Positions 20,480 through 29,696 of a DNA stretch of 30,245 bases are shown in pieces; position 1 is the stretch's first letter, and each line of letters starts with the position of its first letter. Made by a program: the position numbers and the translations under genes. The notes beneath the pieces were generated by a model, which had not been told where the DNA came from, ran no database searches, and was given only the letters and a program-made list of their open reading frames with translations. This DNA comes from a virus, in IMG/VR virus record IMGVR_UViG_3300042534_000315, positions 1 through 30,245 of that record. One strand, given 5' to 3'.

Positions 20480-20664
20480 TTGGATTGCTCCTTAAAGCAA
20501 AACTTTACATCATAAATATCGTCAGCATCTTCGCCATTGATAATTCCAGTCTTTACTTCAAACCAGCACCCCTCTGGGTCTGGTTGGTACTTGAAATCTG
20601 TTCTTTTACCAATCTCTTCTGCCAGAATTGATCTAATTTCATCGTCATTTAGTTTAATTTCCAT
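20476..20664 (-). CDS. small hypothetical protein
   Basis: A 62-residue acidic protein (MEIKLNDDEIRSILAEEIGK, later GCWFEVKTGIINGEDADDIY). Its ribosome binding site (GGAGAATAGAG-ATG) lies in one of the two 42-bp repeats of this region. It couples to the next gene by an ATGA overlap. Family not recognised. Confidence 0.6.
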   Translation of the reverse strand: MEIKLNDDEIRSILAEEIGKRTDFKYQPDPEGCWFEVKTGIINGEDADDIYDVKFCFKEQSK

Positions 20665-20703
20665 CTCTATTCTCCACTCATAGGGGTGTTTGGGTTATTG
20701 GTC
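20662..20703 (-). repeat. 42-bp intergenic linker repeat, copy 1
   Basis: This segment matches 20941-20982 at about 40 of 42 positions. Read on the minus strand it covers the last Asp/Gln-type codons and stop of one gene, a short AT/C-rich stretch, a mini-frame ATGAGTGGAGAATAG, and the GGAG ribosome binding site plus ATG of the next gene. Confidence 0.85.
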
Positions 20704-20943
20704 TGCTTTAATTTCATCTCTGACTATATCCAGAATGCCTATCGCTGTTGCAAGTGACATCTCTCCAGCATATTCATAAACCACCGCTTTGATTCTATCG
20801 CACATCTCTTGATTCTGCGGGTAGTCCCTGTTCTTTTTCTGCTTGAACTCTCTGACTACAACAGCTTTACTTTTTCCGCTATCGTGCAGAATGTCGGATG
20901 TTATTTCTTTGATTCGCTTTCTCTTCTCAAATTCAGTTGTCAT
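20695..20943 (-). CDS. small hypothetical protein
   Basis: An 82-residue, Lys/Arg-rich protein (MTTEFEKRKRIKEITSDILH; REFKQKKNRDYPQNQEMCDR) with a helical C-terminus (AGEMSLATAIGILDIVRDEI). It starts at the end of the second copy of the 42-bp linker repeat and ends in the first copy, so the gene is a cassette-like unit flanked by direct repeats. Family not recognised. Confidence 0.6.
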   Translation of the reverse strand: MTTEFEKRKRIKEITSDILHDSGKSKAVVVREFKQKKNRDYPQNQEMCDRIKAVVYEYAGEMSLATAIGILDIVRDEIKADQ

Positions 20944-20982
20944 CTCTATTCTCCACTCATAGGGTTGTTGGGGTTATTGGTC
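20941..20982 (-). repeat. 42-bp intergenic linker repeat, copy 2
   Basis: Second copy of the linker described at 20662-20703. It ends the DUF551-like gene and supplies the ribosome binding site and start for the gene at 20695-20943. Confidence 0.85.
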
Positions 20983-21252
20983 ATCTTCCTCATACTCTCT
21001 ATCGCTTGGTATTAACTCGCGCCACTGTATCACGGCATACAGACTGGATGAGCCAAACGCCCCGCTAGACGTATTAAACCACTCTCCATTTTCATAATAC
21101 CCAGTATCGGCATAAGTGACAGTTCCATTAATTACCCCTAAGCGCACCTTTCGATTTGAATTTGGCAGCTCTTCTTTAACGCTAACCCATTTAACCTCTG
21201 GCTCTTTAGTCTTTTTGGCTCTAAAGTTCTTGTACCATTTGTGTAGATTCAT
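20974..21252 (-). CDS. DUF551-like small protein
   Basis: A 92-residue protein from ATG 21252, one base past the upstream stop; a longer frame from 21318 lies inside the neighbour and is less likely. The pattern VKWVSVKEELPNSNRKVRLG ... TGYYENGEWFN ... VIQWRELIP follows the DUF551 layout W.SV...LP....V......GYY......W.....H/QW..L. DUF551 proteins are common in enteric phage early regions and have no known function. Confidence 0.6.
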   Translation of the reverse strand: MNLHKWYKNFRAKKTKEPEVKWVSVKEELPNSNRKVRLGVINGTVTYADTGYYENGEWFNTSSGAFGSSSLYAVIQWRELIPSDREYEEDDQ

Positions 21253-23692: not shown

Positions 23693-24250
23693 TTAATTAT
23701 TTTGCAATTTCTCCAGCTCAAGCGCTCTGGCGTTGTAGGCTGCCTTGATTTCTTTGAGGTCATCAATGGTGTAATGCTTTGCATCGTGCGGCCCTTCTAA
23801 TGTTGCCAGCCTGTCAGCTCCGATCTTCTTTTCCAAGTTGATGCGATATGCTGCGATATTGCCGGACAACTCAAGGTTGCAGCGTTTGTTGCATTGCTTA
23901 TGAATGTTATCCTCGCTAAATCTCAGTTCTGGATGTCCTCCCCGCGTCAAGTAATGGCCAGCACAGTATTGTATATCGCGCCTAGTCGTACCGCAGCTTA
24001 TACATGGCTCGCTATAGTCCCTTGCCCTAATAAACCGATTCACCGCCCTCTGAGCGTCATCTGCCCACTCTCGCTTAGTCTTGATCTTCTCTTTCAGGCG
24101 CTTTGTCTCCCGCTTGAACTCCTTTTCCCTGTTCTGGTAGGTCAGCTCAAACGCACATTTAGTGCTACAAACAACAGATGTCGTGGAAAAAGGCCGGAAC
24201 ATATCTCCGCAAATACGACACTTTTTCTTCTTTACTGGCTTATTACCCAT
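23693..24250 (-). CDS. ninG: NinG/Rap-like recombination protein
   Basis: A 185-residue protein from ATG 24250, which overlaps the upstream stop; longer starts at 24265 or above are possible. It has an N-terminal cysteine pair (KKCRICGDMFRPF, CSTKCAFE), a basic central coil and the conserved block FIRARDYSEPCISCGTTRRD, followed by AGHYLTRGGHPELRF and NIHKQCN, matching lambda NinG. NinG (Rap) is a structure-specific nuclease stimulating recombination. It is the last nin gene before the accessory operon. Confidence 0.9.
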   Translation of the reverse strand: MGNKPVKKKKCRICGDMFRPFSTTSVVCSTKCAFELTYQNREKEFKRETKRLKEKIKTKREWADDAQRAVNRFIRARDYSEPCISCGTTRRDIQYCAGHYLTRGGHPELRFSEDNIHKQCNKRCNLELSGNIAAYRINLEKKIGADRLATLEGPHDAKHYTIDDLKEIKAAYNARALELEKLQNN

Positions 24251-24554
24251 CAATCCATTCGCCATACAGCTTTGATGCTTCATACATTGAGTCCTCTGCC
24301 TCTTCCAGTAATTCAGAGCCGCTTTTACACTCCATCTCTGATAGCTTTCTATTAAGCTCTACTATTTGTTTGGATAGGGCGAGGTTTTTGGCTTCGACCA
24401 TAATAGCAAGATCGTCAACTAGGTCGTCAATCAGCTCTTGCAGCTCATCTGGATCAAGCTTTACCCAATCGCACTTACATCCAGCCCTATCCACTCCATC
24501 GTGAACATTGGCATCTATCCACGATTTAGCCCATGCTTTTAATTCTTTGCTCAC
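24243..24554 (-). CDS. hypothetical protein of the nin region
   Basis: A 103-residue, acidic, helical protein (LDPDELQELIDDLVDDLAIM ... LLEEAEDSMYEASKLYGEWI). It starts at GTG 24554 after GGGGGTTGAT. It lies between the NinB-like and NinG genes, where lambdoid phages carry small non-essential ORFs. Family not recognised. Confidence 0.6.
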   Translation of the reverse strand: MSKELKAWAKSWIDANVHDGVDRAGCKCDWVKLDPDELQELIDDLVDDLAIMVEAKNLALSKQIVELNRKLSEMECKSGSELLEEAEDSMYEASKLYGEWIDG

Positions 24555-24590: not shown

Positions 24591-24974
24591 CTAACCGTTA
24601 TATCTGGCAGACGGTAGCGTTATCCCAGCCTCTGCTGCGATGCGGTACGTTCCCTCAATAAGCTCAGAATAGCTTGGCTTTGCCTGCGCCTCGCTGCTCT
24701 CTGTCACCTCCTTTTCGATAGAGCCGATCTTTATTGTCTTGGTTCCGAGAAGCGCCTTTTTCACCAGCTCCTTCACCTCTTCCTTGGTGTATCCGGTTTC
24801 TTGGCTAATCACCCCCAACAGGAAATGCCAGAACCCGCGCATTTCCGCGCTCTTATCCTCCCTGTGCTTCTCAATCGTCACATCCATATCATCCTCGCCC
24901 ATAATGTCCTTAACCGCCTGAATCGCGTTTATTTTGACTTGCTTAGAGTTTAGGTGGAAAACGCGCTTGTTCAT
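24591..24974 (-). CDS. ninB: NinB/Orf-like recombination mediator
   Basis: A 127-residue protein from ATG 24974, preceded by GGAGATAGAG. The middle part DVTIEKHREDKSAEMRGFWH then FLLGVISQETGYTKEEVKEL follows the NinB pattern (I.......S..QNR..W..L......). The C-terminus (YSELIEGTYRIAAEAGITL) also suits. Lambda Orf/NinB binds SSB and single-stranded DNA and helps Red recombination. The gene starts right after an attC-like element, at the edge of the inserted small-gene cluster. Confidence 0.65.
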   Translation of the reverse strand: MNKRVFHLNSKQVKINAIQAVKDIMGEDDMDVTIEKHREDKSAEMRGFWHFLLGVISQETGYTKEEVKELVKKALLGTKTIKIGSIEKEVTESSEAQAKPSYSELIEGTYRIAAEAGITLPSARYNG

Positions 24975-24991
24975 CTCTATCTCCAATTATT

Positions 24992-25046
24992 ATATAACAG
25001 GTCGCTAACACGGACGCTGATGCGCCGGTTAGCTTGGCTGTTAGTG
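24992..25046 (-). other. attC-like site M1
   Basis: Read on the minus strand: box CACTAAC (25046-25040, containing the TAA stop of the adjacent gene), spacer, stem GCTAAC-CGG-CGC, loop ATCA, stem GCG-T-CCG-T-GTTAGC (25033-25004), spacer, box GTTATAT (24998-24992). All twelve stem pairs form, and two unpaired T bases sit on the 3' arm, the pattern of extrahelical bases of integron attC sites. The first two bases of the left box depart from the consensus RYYYAAC. The outer boxes and spacers match site P2 at 29641. Confidence 0.75.
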
Positions 25047-25256
25047 CACGGCAATTACTTCAATATCGTCAACCGTGCCAATGACTTTTCCATATCTTTT
25101 AACAGGCCTGCCATTTTGCTCAGGGTAGCAATGAGCTACTCCAGGCTGAAAATCATCATATTGTTCTTTTGTAGCAATACCATCCTCAATTAAAAATAGA
25201 TCATCTCTATCTCCAAGAGCATTTTTTAAATCACCATGTAATCGTATTTTTTGCAT
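25041..25256 (-). CDS. cassette-borne hypothetical protein
   Basis: A 71-residue protein (MQKIRLHGDLKNALGDRDDL ... GVAHCYPEQNGRPVKRYGKV). GGAG lies ten bases before the ATG. Its stop is inside the left box of attC-like site M1 and its start follows the right box of M2, so it is a complete cassette-like unit of about 280 bp. Function not recognised. Confidence 0.6.
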   Translation of the reverse strand: MQKIRLHGDLKNALGDRDDLFLIEDGIATKEQYDDFQPGVAHCYPEQNGRPVKRYGKVIGTVDDIEVIAVH

Positions 25257-25275
25257 GTCTTTTACTCCAAAACTG

Positions 25276-25359
25276 CACTAACAAATAAATTAAGCCGGAC
25301 GGTTATACAGCGGCGTTCTTTCCGGCATGGTCACGCCGCCGCTTATCATGCTGTTAGGC
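25276..25359 (-). other. attC-like site M2
   Basis: Minus strand: box GCCTAAC (25359-25353, a full match to RYYYAAC), spacer AGCAT, arm TAAGCGG, an inner CGGCGT/ACGCCG hairpin region, arm CCGGCTTA, and a right box GTTAGTG (25282-25276). The arms pair with one unpaired G on the 3' arm. The right box departs from GTTRRRY in its last two bases. It is 84 bases long, within the known attC range. The upstream gene stops three bases before it. Confidence 0.6.
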
Positions 25360-25361
25360 AT

Positions 25362-25547
25362 TCAATAATCACTTTTGCCATCTTGCGAATTTATTACCTC
25401 TGCAACAGTAACCTTACAGTCATTTAATCCATCATTAGTGAATAAATCTTTAATGAATTCATCCCTCTCTTTTTTTGCTTCATCAAGTGTTTCGCAGTAA
25501 GCGACCTGTGGGTAATAAGGATGATCTGCAACCACAATAAATTTCAT
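25362..25547 (-). CDS. cassette-borne hypothetical protein
   Basis: A 61-residue protein (MKFIVVADHPYYPQVAYCET, then LDEAKKERDEFIKDL). The alternating strand/helix pattern suggests a small alpha/beta fold. Its start overlaps the end of a 32-residue ORF (ATGA). It is followed directly by attC-like site M2. Function not recognised. Confidence 0.6.
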   Translation of the reverse strand: MKFIVVADHPYYPQVAYCETLDEAKKERDEFIKDLFTNDGLNDCKVTVAEVINSQDGKSDY

Positions 25548-25642
25548 TTTTCACCTCTAAACGTGTACACACCGTCACGTCTCTTTTTTGCTCGATCAGC
25601 TATTGCATTCTCGTTTTCAATATTAAGTCCGTAAGTAACCAT
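25544..25642 (-). CDS. 32-residue micro-protein, first ORF of a two-gene cassette
   Basis: Starting at ATG 25642 with ACGGAG ten bases upstream, the frame reads MVTYGLNIENENAIADRAKK and ends RRDGVYTFRGEK. Its stop overlaps the start of the 61-residue gene (ATGA), so both are probably made from one message. The start is 23 bases past the right box of attC-like site M3. Function unknown. Confidence 0.5.
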   Translation of the reverse strand: MVTYGLNIENENAIADRAKKRRDGVYTFRGEK

Positions 25643-25664
25643 ATATCACTCCGTATCAGCAGCC

Positions 25665-25748
25665 GTATAACACGGCGCTCAATTTGACCGCGATACTGCG
25701 GAACATTTCTCACCACCTGTGGGCGGCAAATTAGCTAAATCGTTATAG
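25665..25748 (-). other. attC-like site M3
   Basis: Minus strand: box CTATAAC (25748-25742, includes the TAA stop of the adjacent gene), spacer GATTT, arm GCTAATTTGCCGC (25735-25723), a 31-base variable region with a CCAC/GTGG hairpin, arm GCGGTCAAATTGAGC (25691-25677), spacer, box GTTATAC (25671-25665). Thirteen base pairs form and exactly two bases, T and G, are left out, both on the 3' arm. This is the arrangement of extrahelical bases that sets strand choice in attC recombination. The site is the clearest of the minus-strand set. Confidence 0.75.
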
Positions 25749-25928
25749 CGCTTTGCGGTTTTGCGCGAAATTAAGCACTGATAAGTAGCGGTTATATTTC
25801 CTACTCGTTTTCCATGCAAACCATTTCGCGGCAAGGGCCTGCCCCCAGTCAAACCATATCAGGCTTGCCCACACTGATGCTGATATTTCGTAGTCTAAAA
25901 ACTGCTTTCTACGCTCTTCTGGTGTCAT
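25743..25928 (-). CDS. cassette-borne hypothetical protein
   Basis: A 61-residue protein from ATG 25928 (a longer frame would need TTG). It is rich in aromatic residues (SASVWASLIWFDWGQALAAK, then WFAWKTSRKYNRYL), with a possible hydrophobic helix at about 15-38, and ends in basic residues. Its stop is inside the left box of site M3. The leader GCGAGGTTGAT also precedes the plus-strand cassette gene at 29281. Function unknown; possibly membrane-associated. Confidence 0.6.
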   Translation of the reverse strand: MTPEERRKQFLDYEISASVWASLIWFDWGQALAAKWFAWKTSRKYNRYLSVLNFAQNRKAL

Positions 25929-25957
25929 TTCTATCAACCTCGCGCTTTAAAACGCCG

Positions 25958-26389
25958 TTATGTGTAAGCAGCAACAATCTTTAAACATTGCGCCTCTGTT
26001 GGTTTGCATGGTGGGGCATTCTCATACAATAACCACATTGCATCTGTAGCACCTCTGCTTTTATACCAGCTTACCCACAGTGCTAACGGGCTATCATCAA
26101 GCTCTATGTGGTCAACTTTAATCGTCGCGTACTTCTGGTCTTCGCAATACTGGTAATCTACGCCATGTGGTAAGTCTTGCCCTTCGTAGCAAATATCTCT
26201 AATCAAGTTTGTAGTTGCACAGTTCCAGTTCTCGCTAAATCGCCCACCTTCAAACGCACATCTAGGGCTGCTACCTTCCCATGTTTGCCCGCGCTTAGTG
26301 CAGGCGTCACACATAACAAGGCGCTCAACTGGAGGCGCTTTTGTATCGGCCTGCTCGCCATTCTCATCTGTTTTAATATCATCACTCAT
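25958..26389 (-). CDS. cysteine-containing hypothetical protein
   Basis: A 143-residue protein from ATG 26389 (AGGAGATGTGAAA before it). After an acidic N-terminus it carries VMCDACTKRGQTWEGSSPRC then FEGGRFSENWNCATTNLIRD; the cysteines (CDAC...C...C) could bind a metal. The C-terminus is IVAAYT. Its stop codon lies in ACATAAC, which looks like the left box of an attC site, but the rest of that site is missing and the next gene starts 30 bases on. Function not recognised. Confidence 0.6.
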   Translation of the reverse strand: MSDDIKTDENGEQADTKAPPVERLVMCDACTKRGQTWEGSSPRCAFEGGRFSENWNCATTNLIRDICYEGQDLPHGVDYQYCEDQKYATIKVDHIELDDSPLALWVSWYKSRGATDAMWLLYENAPPCKPTEAQCLKIVAAYT

Positions 26390-26400
26390 TTTCACATCTC

Positions 26401-26437
26401 CTGTAATTTCGCGCCCAAGTTAGCTAGGCTGTTATTC
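26401..26437 (-). other. degenerate left half of an attC-like site
   Basis: On the minus strand GAATAAC (26437-26431) is followed by AGCCT and AGCTAACTTGG. This copies the left half of P2 and M1 (TAACAGCCAAGCTAA). The returning arm and GTT box are absent; the leader of the next gene follows. I see it as a decayed or recombined site. A frame ending ...FLTSRNE stops inside it. Confidence 0.4.
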
Positions 26438-28526: not shown

Positions 28527-28555
28527 TTGAGATATTAAACGACTCATTGTATAAT
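28527..28555 (+). promoter_or_regulatory. rightward promoter of the control region
   Basis: TTGAGA (28527-28532) and a perfect TATAAT (28550-28555) are 17 bases apart. Transcription would start near 28562 and reach the gene at 28690 after a leader of about 128 bases. It overlaps the leftward promoter almost completely. Confidence 0.75.
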
Positions 28556-28560
28556 GTCAA
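28532..28560 (-). promoter_or_regulatory. leftward promoter of the HTH/replication operon
   Basis: On the minus strand a perfect TTGACA (28560-28555) and TAATAT (28537-28532) are 17 bases apart. The start would be near 28525, some 30 bases before the HTH gene. Flanking 6-bp arms AGTTGA (28525-28530) and TCAACT (28557-28562) make the region an imperfect palindrome, a possible operator. Confidence 0.75.
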
Positions 28561-28689: not shown

Positions 28690-28962
28690 ATGGACATAAG
28701 TAAGTTGAATTTTAAGCCTCACGATATAGGAATTGGCGGAACTCACGCAACTATCGAGTTTGATAATGGGTATGGCGCAAGCATTGTAACTGGGCCTATG
28801 TTCTATACAAGCGATCATCGGCCTTACGAGCTTGCCGTGCTTCATAATGGCAAATTGACCTACGATACGCCGATTACAGAGGACGTTCTTGGGTATCTAG
28901 TTGCCGCAGAAGTTGAGTCCACGCTTGATGAGATTGCTGCCCTGCCAGAGGATAAGTCATGA
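28690..28962 (+). CDS. hypothetical protein, first rightward gene
   Basis: A 90-residue protein (MDISKLNFKPHDIGIGGTHA ... SIVTGPMFYTSDHRPYELAV) with beta-rich middle and helical C-terminus (EVESTLDEIAALPED). AGGAGATAGAAG precedes the ATG. It is transcribed from the rightward promoter and overlaps the next gene by four bases. Not a repressor by sequence; function not recognised. Confidence 0.65.
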   Translation: MDISKLNFKPHDIGIGGTHATIEFDNGYGASIVTGPMFYTSDHRPYELAVLHNGKLTYDTPITEDVLGYLVAAEVESTLDEIAALPEDKS

Positions 28963-29201
28963 GCCTAGCCAACCTATCTGTCATTATGGGCAGAATCAAA
29001 ACAGCCACGGAAAAGTCGCCTATTGCGGTGTTTAAGTCTACCGTGGAAGGATATAGAGAAGATGGGATGCTTGATGCGGTATTTGGTGATACCGTGCGCA
29101 CAACGGCAAGGATTAAATCTGGCGACCCTGACTACATCGGCTCATATTGTCAGGATATGGATTTGATTAAGGTTAAGTCATCGCTGAGGATGTATGTTTA
29201 G
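28959..29201 (+). CDS. hypothetical protein
   Basis: An 80-residue protein (MSLANLSVIMGRIKTATEKS ... DTVRTTARIKSGDPDYIGSY). It starts within the upstream stop (ATGA) and its TAG is directly followed by attC-like site P1. Function not recognised. Confidence 0.6.
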   Translation: MSLANLSVIMGRIKTATEKSPIAVFKSTVEGYREDGMLDAVFGDTVRTTARIKSGDPDYIGSYCQDMDLIKVKSSLRMYV

Positions 29202-29267
29202 GGATAACGCTTCGTTTCAGCGTGGCGAGACGCAGGCGAAGCATCCGACTGGAAACGATTGTTAGAT
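29202..29267 (+). other. attC-like site P1
   Basis: Left box GGATAAC (29202-29208), spacer GCTTC, arm GTTTCAG (29214-29220), central region with GCGT/ACGC, arm CTGGAAAC (29249-29256), spacer GATT, right box GTTAGAT (29261-29267). The arms pair over seven bases with one unpaired G on the 3' arm. The right box is a full match to GTTRRRY and equals that of the aadA1 attC. The left box deviates from RYYYAAC at two positions. Confidence 0.7.
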
Positions 29268-29280
29268 TGCGAGGTTGATT

Positions 29281-29646
29281 ATGGCAAAGATTACGGAACG
29301 TGGGTGGGGTGGACATTTTATTTGCGCCAACCGCTGCTTGTTTAGACGGAATACGCTTATTGACGGCGACAAGGATAGTGTTGTGGTTAGTACTGTTGGT
29401 GGTATGCGTGCCAGTGATGGCGATGGATTAGAAACAATCGGCGCAGGTGGCCGTTACTACGAAACAATGGTTTTCGGCGCACAACAGGACGGGGAATACA
29501 TTGAGGCAAACGTATCAGATGAACGGAGCTTCGATAGTGAATGGAGTATCTGCGCCGATAGCTACAAAAAGCTGCCGGATGATGTGGACAACAGGGCCAA
29601 CGCTATGCACGACGCTGTAGTGGCTGAGATGGCAAAAGCAATCTAA
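29281..29646 (+). CDS. cassette-borne hypothetical protein
   Basis: A 121-residue protein from ATG 29281 (a frame from 29275 would need TTG). It reads MAKITERGWGGHFICANRCL then FRRNTLIDGDKDSVVVSTVG; the C-terminus AMHDAVVAEMAKAI is helical. The leader GCGAGGTTGAT before it is shared with the gene at 25743-25928. It is framed by sites P1 and P2 and its TAA lies within the left box of P2, so it forms a complete cassette of about 430 bp. Function not recognised. Confidence 0.7.
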   Translation: MAKITERGWGGHFICANRCLFRRNTLIDGDKDSVVVSTVGGMRASDGDGLETIGAGGRYYETMVFGAQQDGEYIEANVSDERSFDSEWSICADSYKKLPDDVDNRANAMHDAVVAEMAKAI

Positions 29647-29696
29647 CAGCCAAGCTAAGTTGCCGCATCAGCGGTCAACTTGGCGACCTGTTATAT
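29641..29696 (+). other. attC-like site P2
   Basis: Left box ATCTAAC (29641-29647, full match to RYYYAAC and containing the TAA stop), spacer, arm GCTAAGTTGCCGC (29654-29666), loop ATCA, arm GCGG-T-CAACTTGGC (29671-29684), spacer, right box GTTATAT (29690-29696). Thirteen pairs form (one G-T) with a single unpaired T on the 3' arm. Boxes, spacers and loop match site M1, while the stem differs but still pairs. Confidence 0.8.

Follow-up and report, generated by a model that had tools for sequence, protein, structure and literature searches.

Integron-type gene cassettes in both early operons of a P22-like phage and a candidate translation start inside a long attC site

Introduction

Are the small genes scattered between the early genes of a lambdoid phage integron-type cassettes and, if so, how could they be moved and translated? 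The question is raised by the virus record IMGVR_UViG_3300042534_000315, whose 30,245 bases, which may be a fragment of a larger genome, were all analysed and are called here the window. Its genes include portal, coat and terminase, O-like and P-like replication genes, a Cro-like regulator, NinB and NinG, and the joint presence of the O-like, P-like, NinB and NinG genes with P22-like head genes identifies a lambdoid, P22-like phage. An initial annotation had noticed that three successive small genes on the minus strand, just upstream of the NinB-like gene, end in or beside elements laid out like attC sites, and had proposed a cluster of attC sites lacking an integrase (CALIN). According to the available text of Qi et al. 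(2023, PMC9892861), phage CALINs have already been published, in both temperate and virulent phages, and they likewise consist of attC-bounded cassettes without integrase.

Results

attC sites in both divergent early operons

Candidate elements were evaluated against attCs taken from gammaproteobacterial arrays that adjoin an integron integrase gene. One measure was a gap-free layout score, to which boxes, spacers, arms and the two extrahelical bases of the 3' arm (T and G) contribute; the other was an independent covariance model built from 25 of these bacterial attCs, none of them phage-derived. These two measures replaced a first, gap-tolerant attC scanner that was dropped because it was unspecific, shuffled sequences reaching a score of 16.0. 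Gap-free scores were 21.0 for site 1, 18.7 for site 6, 15.4 for site 5 and 12.5 for site 3, with a reference median of 20.1; the best value in 60 dinucleotide shuffles of the window was 15.9, and 0.05 elements are expected per window at 15 or above. Sites 1, 5 and 6 reach this level gap-free, site 3 is recognised by the model, and sites 2 and 4 are weaker. Within the window the covariance model ranked sites 5, 3, 1 and 4 at the top (36.4, 21.1, 14.3 and 14.1 bits), above a background of at most 9.0 bits, which is the match that the attC proposal called for. In a search of 1.03 Mb (96 related phage loci plus the window), matches up to an E value of 3 comprised only window sites 1, 5, 3 and 2 and three sites of one other phage (L011). 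Site 6 was missed by the covariance model, probably because of its long loop. The attCs of phage TJE1, two of which were shown to be active with IntI1 in the available text of Qi et al. (2023, PMC9892861), obtained 38.5, 32.7 and 25.8 bits under the same model, scores like those of window sites 1 and 5.

Altogether, four attC sites lie within 1.45 kb on the minus strand and two within 0.5 kb on the plus strand, so that each strand shows the clustering of two or more attCs over a few kb that marks a CALIN. Every one is oriented with the transcription of its operon, that is, the minus-strand nin operon or the divergent plus-strand operon. Between the two early operons lies a candidate divergent pair of sigma-70-like promoters (28527..28560; 11/12 and 10/12 consensus matches), although such matches are no more numerous across the region as a whole than expected by chance. 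No integron integrase (IntI) was found in a search of the whole record, and the window is therefore not a complete integron, which would carry intI in the same element. The proposed CALIN in a P22-like phage was thus borne out, and to its three elements, our sites 1, 2 and 3, the analysis added site 6, the plus-strand sites 4 and 5, a collapsed remnant and a start codon within a long attC. Site 5 was located by querying the window with the DNA of the array, site 4 by reading nearby and site 6 by the layout scan.

The minus-strand array begins with site 6 (26311..26437, 127 nt), which has a canonical layout and is followed by the cassette A gene (25958..26389), whose body runs from the GTT/ATG at 26317-26312 to a TAA stop inside its own left box. 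Cassette A is closed by what appears, as judged by eye, to be a collapsed attC remnant (25932..25963, minus strand; ACATAAC...GTTGATA) that has lost its arms. Next comes the cassette B gene (25743..25928, minus strand), an ORF whose TAA stop (25745-25743) lies inside the left box of site 1. Site 1 (25665..25748, minus strand; 37.0 bits, E 2.6e-6 in 1.03 Mb) shows the full canonical layout of the reference attCs, with a 6-nt spacer, the arm GCT-AATTTG-CCGC paired with GCGG-T-CAAATT-G-AGC, which leaves the T and the G extrahelical on the 3' arm, and a 5-nt spacer. By eye, its loop holds a purine-rich stretch and an ATG opening a short frame, similar to ORF-11 of attI1, that stops a few codons past GTT. 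Cassette C opens with a 32-aa ORF (25641-25543) that overlaps, by an ATGA, the 61-aa cassette C gene (25362..25547, minus strand); judged from sequence, the short frame of site 1 and this overlap look like translational coupling. The 61-aa ORF ends with a TGA just ahead of the left box of site 2 (25276..25359, minus strand; 18.3 bits, E 0.33 in 1.03 Mb). The cassette D gene (25041..25256, minus strand) ends with a TAA (25043-25041) inside the left box of site 3 (24992..25046, minus strand; 21.1 bits, E 0.0016), so the two stops described within left boxes are both in place. Sites 2 and 3 retain the extrahelical T and have the second bulge displaced. Site 3 stands just upstream of the NinB-like gene (24591..24974, minus strand; PHROG 72, E 3.1e-15), the downstream neighbour of this array as annotated, and NinG follows at 23693..24283 (minus strand; Pfam NinG, E 1e-54).

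In the divergent early operon, an ORF at 28959..29201 (plus strand) precedes site 4 (29202..29267, plus strand), which is weak and degenerate (E 0.13) and ranks fourth in the window. It is followed by the cassette E gene (29281..29646, plus strand), which we start at an ATG, the ORF list giving a TTG from 29275, and whose TAA stop falls in the left box of site 5 (29641..29696, plus strand; E 1.1e-7). Site 5 shares 81% DNA identity with site 3. The proteins of the four minus-strand cassettes had no Pfam or PHROG matches and that of cassette E had no PHROG match; cassette A alone among the window cassettes has homologues, in Bacillus phages. Outside the arrays, the longest direct repeat of the window is a 56-bp sequence (20653-20708 and 20932-20987, 86% identical) that spans two gene starts.

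Hairpins between small genes could also be intrinsic terminators, or places where phage RNA is processed in the ordinary way, a reading that the intergenic position of the elements would allow. The bottom strands of sites 3 (z -5.86) and 5 (z -5.73) fold more stably than shuffled sequences; sites 1, 2, 4 and 6 have large open loops and do not fold significantly better. However, no intrinsic terminator (GC stem plus T run) was called at any attC site of the window, in agreement with the earlier argument that unpaired bases on one arm only do not fit terminators, and the whole region yielded two calls compared with 4.9 in shuffles. An Rfam scan of the window gave no family matches. With the attC-model scores and with left boxes shared with the start of their own cassette, described below, the terminator reading is already largely refuted and we regard it as extremely improbable. 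As attC sites, some of these elements may be poor substrates, given the weakness of sites 2 and 4 and the fold of site 6, which is no better than shuffles.

Arrays in other phages

A search of viral contigs with an exact 15-mer of the left half returned mostly chance matches plus one true second phage, IMGVR_UViG_3300032212_000052, whose early region contains about eight candidate attCs, some sharing the subtype of window sites 3 and 5. A third phage, IMGVR_UViG_3300020045_001133 (L011/L275), carries its array between NinB and NinG. A further attC pattern led to 27 viral loci, and 26 of the loci contain 99 covariance-model matches at E of 0.1 or below. Several of the viral arrays are near NinB, NinG, RecT, O-like, primase, ERF, exonuclease VIII or terminase genes, and in several contigs that were checked phage primase, polymerase, helicase, integrase or recombination genes lie close to the arrays. 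The viral contigs are not independent, several coming from one metagenome (3300020045). No convincing attC was found in EBPR podovirus 2 or in a Pseudomonas phage record. In the record L312 (IMGVR_UViG_648276688_000003), an array of start-codon attCs lies beside primase and methyltransferase genes; its identifier resembles that of an isolate genome, so this phage may be experimentally accessible.

Regarding the host of the window phage, plasmid and phage DNA matches identified none, and relatives of its coat protein are mostly on Burkholderiales and Alphaproteobacteria contigs. A 103-aa protein near NinG (24243-24554) has a relative in the second cassette-bearing phage (L185, 11068-11370; 57% identity over 47 aa), and this similarity suggests that the two phages may share a host group or a gene pool. 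No close relative of the window phage without cassettes was found.

Cassette junctions

A genuine cassette derives from a single excised circle, and the bases directly following its G/TT crossover therefore match its own left box when this is read as the reverse complement. This match was present in three of the five window cassettes, covering 9 bp in A (with the left box of the remnant), 9 bp in D and 10 bp in E, and was not seen in B and C. Over 13 cassettes from three phages the signature amounts to 97 matched bases, a sum that 100,000 permutations never attained; when only the five cassettes of the window are considered, their observed sum is reached in 2 of 120 orders, which is not clear-cut.

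A candidate start codon inside the attC

An integron cassette that lacks a good ribosome-binding site is translated poorly. The loop of site 6 contains an AGGAG (26402-26398), eight bases and an ATG (26389-26387); from this ATG the leader MSDDIKTDENGEQADTKAPPVERLV continues in frame across the right arm and past GTT into the protein of cassette A. A start of cassette A only at the ATG at 26314 had been considered and was replaced by the start at 26389, since the bases before 26314 belong to an attC arm in which no ribosome-binding site is evident, and since other phages show in-loop starts as well.

To assess this recurrence, distinct long attCs were defined as those of 74 nt or more with a layout score of 16 or more. 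An in-loop ATG open for about 25 codons past GTT was present in 75 of 175 such viral attCs, and in 51 of the 175 it was accompanied by a Shine-Dalgarno sequence, these 51 being spread over 40 contigs. When the loops were shuffled and the arms kept, the 175 attCs gave on average 21.8 open ATGs and 5.1 with Shine-Dalgarno, with maxima of 37 and 10-11, respectively. Long attCs of bacteria, here Gammaproteobacteria only, showed 3/55 and 1/55, which is the chance level, and the Shine-Dalgarno class differs between viral and bacterial sites with a Fisher p of about 4e-6. The in-loop starts fall in the three frames as 50, 2 and 29; the near absence of starts in frame 1 is due, at least in part, to a TGA that the arm contains in that frame. 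A long-attC pattern that does not require an ATG was also run on the viral contigs and on 369 Gammaproteobacteria genomes, where it found 23 bacterial sites in total; among sites with five or six of six arm pairs, an ATG open for at least 25 codons past GTT occurred in 33/77 viral and 0/6 bacterial cases.

Two classes of leaders were recognised. A family of about 14 codons, M(N/K)(E/P)xxxRAPVER(R/T)V, precedes different bodies in L354, L312, L331, L339, L343, L374, L287 and L386, and a second class of loop-start attCs, in another frame, has leaders ending in LSEGLG, LSDGLG or LSALLG (L313, L332, L349, L361, L372 and L376). An excess of third-position changes was not seen among codon-position changes in one leader family, and the amino acids of the leader may therefore not matter. 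In L282 (3025-3150), a loop-start attC precedes a frame that resembles a helicase (LAEFAEMIGGGKLRPYQKEMLDALERG); this may be a resident phage gene whose predicted start comes from the attC.

The start-bearing attCs could have been acquired from bacteria of an unsampled group that carry them in their chromosomal integrons, in which case they would not be a phage feature; the comparison set of 369 Gammaproteobacteria genomes and about 80 cassettes may not represent the phages' host group. We consider this origin possible, though rather unlikely, given that the same pattern retrieved sites from these bacteria of which no well-paired one had an in-loop start, that the arm motif typical of the leaders occurs only twice in the 369 genomes, about as often as by chance, and that none of 35 viral records contains an integron integrase above the family cut-off.

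Gene bodies behind the leaders

Between the preceding GTT and the left box that follows, viral cassettes commonly form an open frame: of 201, among which double counting is possible, 47, 39 and 7 were open in frames 0, 1 and 2, respectively, and 42/201 stop exactly on the left-box TAA. The chromosomal integrons of Gammaproteobacteria share with the phage arrays the attC layout, spacers, extrahelical T and G and cassette structure, but differ in having intI and attI and in that 0/83 of their cassettes are open from GTT to left box in any frame. The Bacillus phage homologues of cassette A have no leader and begin exactly at the crossover boundary.

These observations also bear on whether the in-loop starts are a by-product of dense phage coding, with genes extending upstream over an attC by chance. 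Open frames through attC arms are indeed common in GC-rich DNA, and the shuffled loops themselves contained a good number of open ATGs. Nevertheless, the observed counts, above all those with Shine-Dalgarno, far exceed the shuffle maxima, the homologues without attC start at the boundary and not in the leader, and the bodies are open from GTT to the left-box TAA, which together make a chance extension improbable.

Homologous bodies were moreover found behind different leaders. The bodies of L301 and L374 align from body residue 1 with 62% identity over 221 aa, two cassettes of L372 have bodies 72% identical over 97 aa from residue 1, and those of L274 and L359 are 87% identical over 68 aa, again from residue 1. 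In the latter pair, 2-6 of 15 DNA positions agree within the leader, compared with 13-14 of 15 once the conserved arm is reached, and this step indicates a break within about 15 nt of the crossover. Taken with the junction signature, these comparisons of bodies and leaders in other phages place the deduced breakpoints at G/TT or no more than about 15 nt away from it.

A further possibility is that the cassettes are real but fossil, having been captured once, illegitimately, from a host chromosomal integron, and are now immobile. Illegitimate capture has been proposed for some phage CALINs in the available text of Qi et al. (2023, PMC9892861), the phage record lacks an integrase, and degradation is seen in sites 2 and 4 and in the remnant at 25932-25963. 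On the other hand, sites 1, 3 and 5 keep canonical features, the insertions in the two operons are separate and oppositely oriented, different phages carry arrays at several positions, and the same body behind different leaders in other contigs requires recombination at the boundary at some time. We thus consider a purely fossil origin possible, though rather unlikely.

Discussion

The window very likely represents CALIN cassettes in both divergent early operons of one phage, which would be moved by a host IntI, transcribed from phage promoters and translated from starts in attC loops. Each cassette would be a small promoterless gene closed by an attC and oriented with the phage transcript. 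During infection, a host integron integrase would most likely recombine the folded bottom strand of the phage attCs, and recombination at G/TT could add, remove or shuffle cassettes. The phage early promoters would then transcribe them, and translation would begin in the loop of the attC of the preceding cassette and run in frame over the crossover, so that the next gene body is made with a short leader encoded by the attC. For phages in general our confidence is somewhat lower: it is probable that in many of them the attC provides a ribosome-binding site and start to the next cassette, whose body would lack a start of its own, keep a fixed frame from the crossover base, have its stop at the TAA in the following left box and be translated at once as a leader fusion, from which the phage may benefit.

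The CALIN itself is a further member of a published group, and the unexpected part is the start signal in the long attC. Arrays in the nin region of lambdoid phages, their presence in both divergent early operons and loop-start attCs are not described in the available text of Qi et al. (2023, PMC9892861). In the open-access literature, the nearest described device is ORF-11 of attI1. ORF-11 and ORF-18 of attI1 in class 1 integrons likewise place a Shine-Dalgarno sequence and an ATG in a recombination site, with a frame that runs over the crossover and aids the next cassette when this is TIR-deficient (PMC8876359). In contrast, they reside in attI, occur once per integron and stop soon after the crossover, acting by re-initiation (PMC8876359), whereas the start signal in the window and the other phages lies in attCs, recurs along the array and would fuse into the next gene. 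Fused cassettes such as blaGES-1/aacA4 also have a frame or translation unit over a cassette junction (PMC4670013); in that case the attC is largely lost and the fusion fixed, while the phage arrays keep the attC and their boundary would still be swappable.

How phages exchange the accessory genes of their nin and early regions is mostly unexplained, and integron-type cassettes offer a concrete route, probably by way of a host integrase. Two narrow sequence patterns already led to well over a hundred viral loci, many with arrays, compared with 17 published phage CALINs. If our reading is true, a translation start carried by the attC would solve in phages the problem of poor cassette translation, and genes could be swapped in frame and read straight away.
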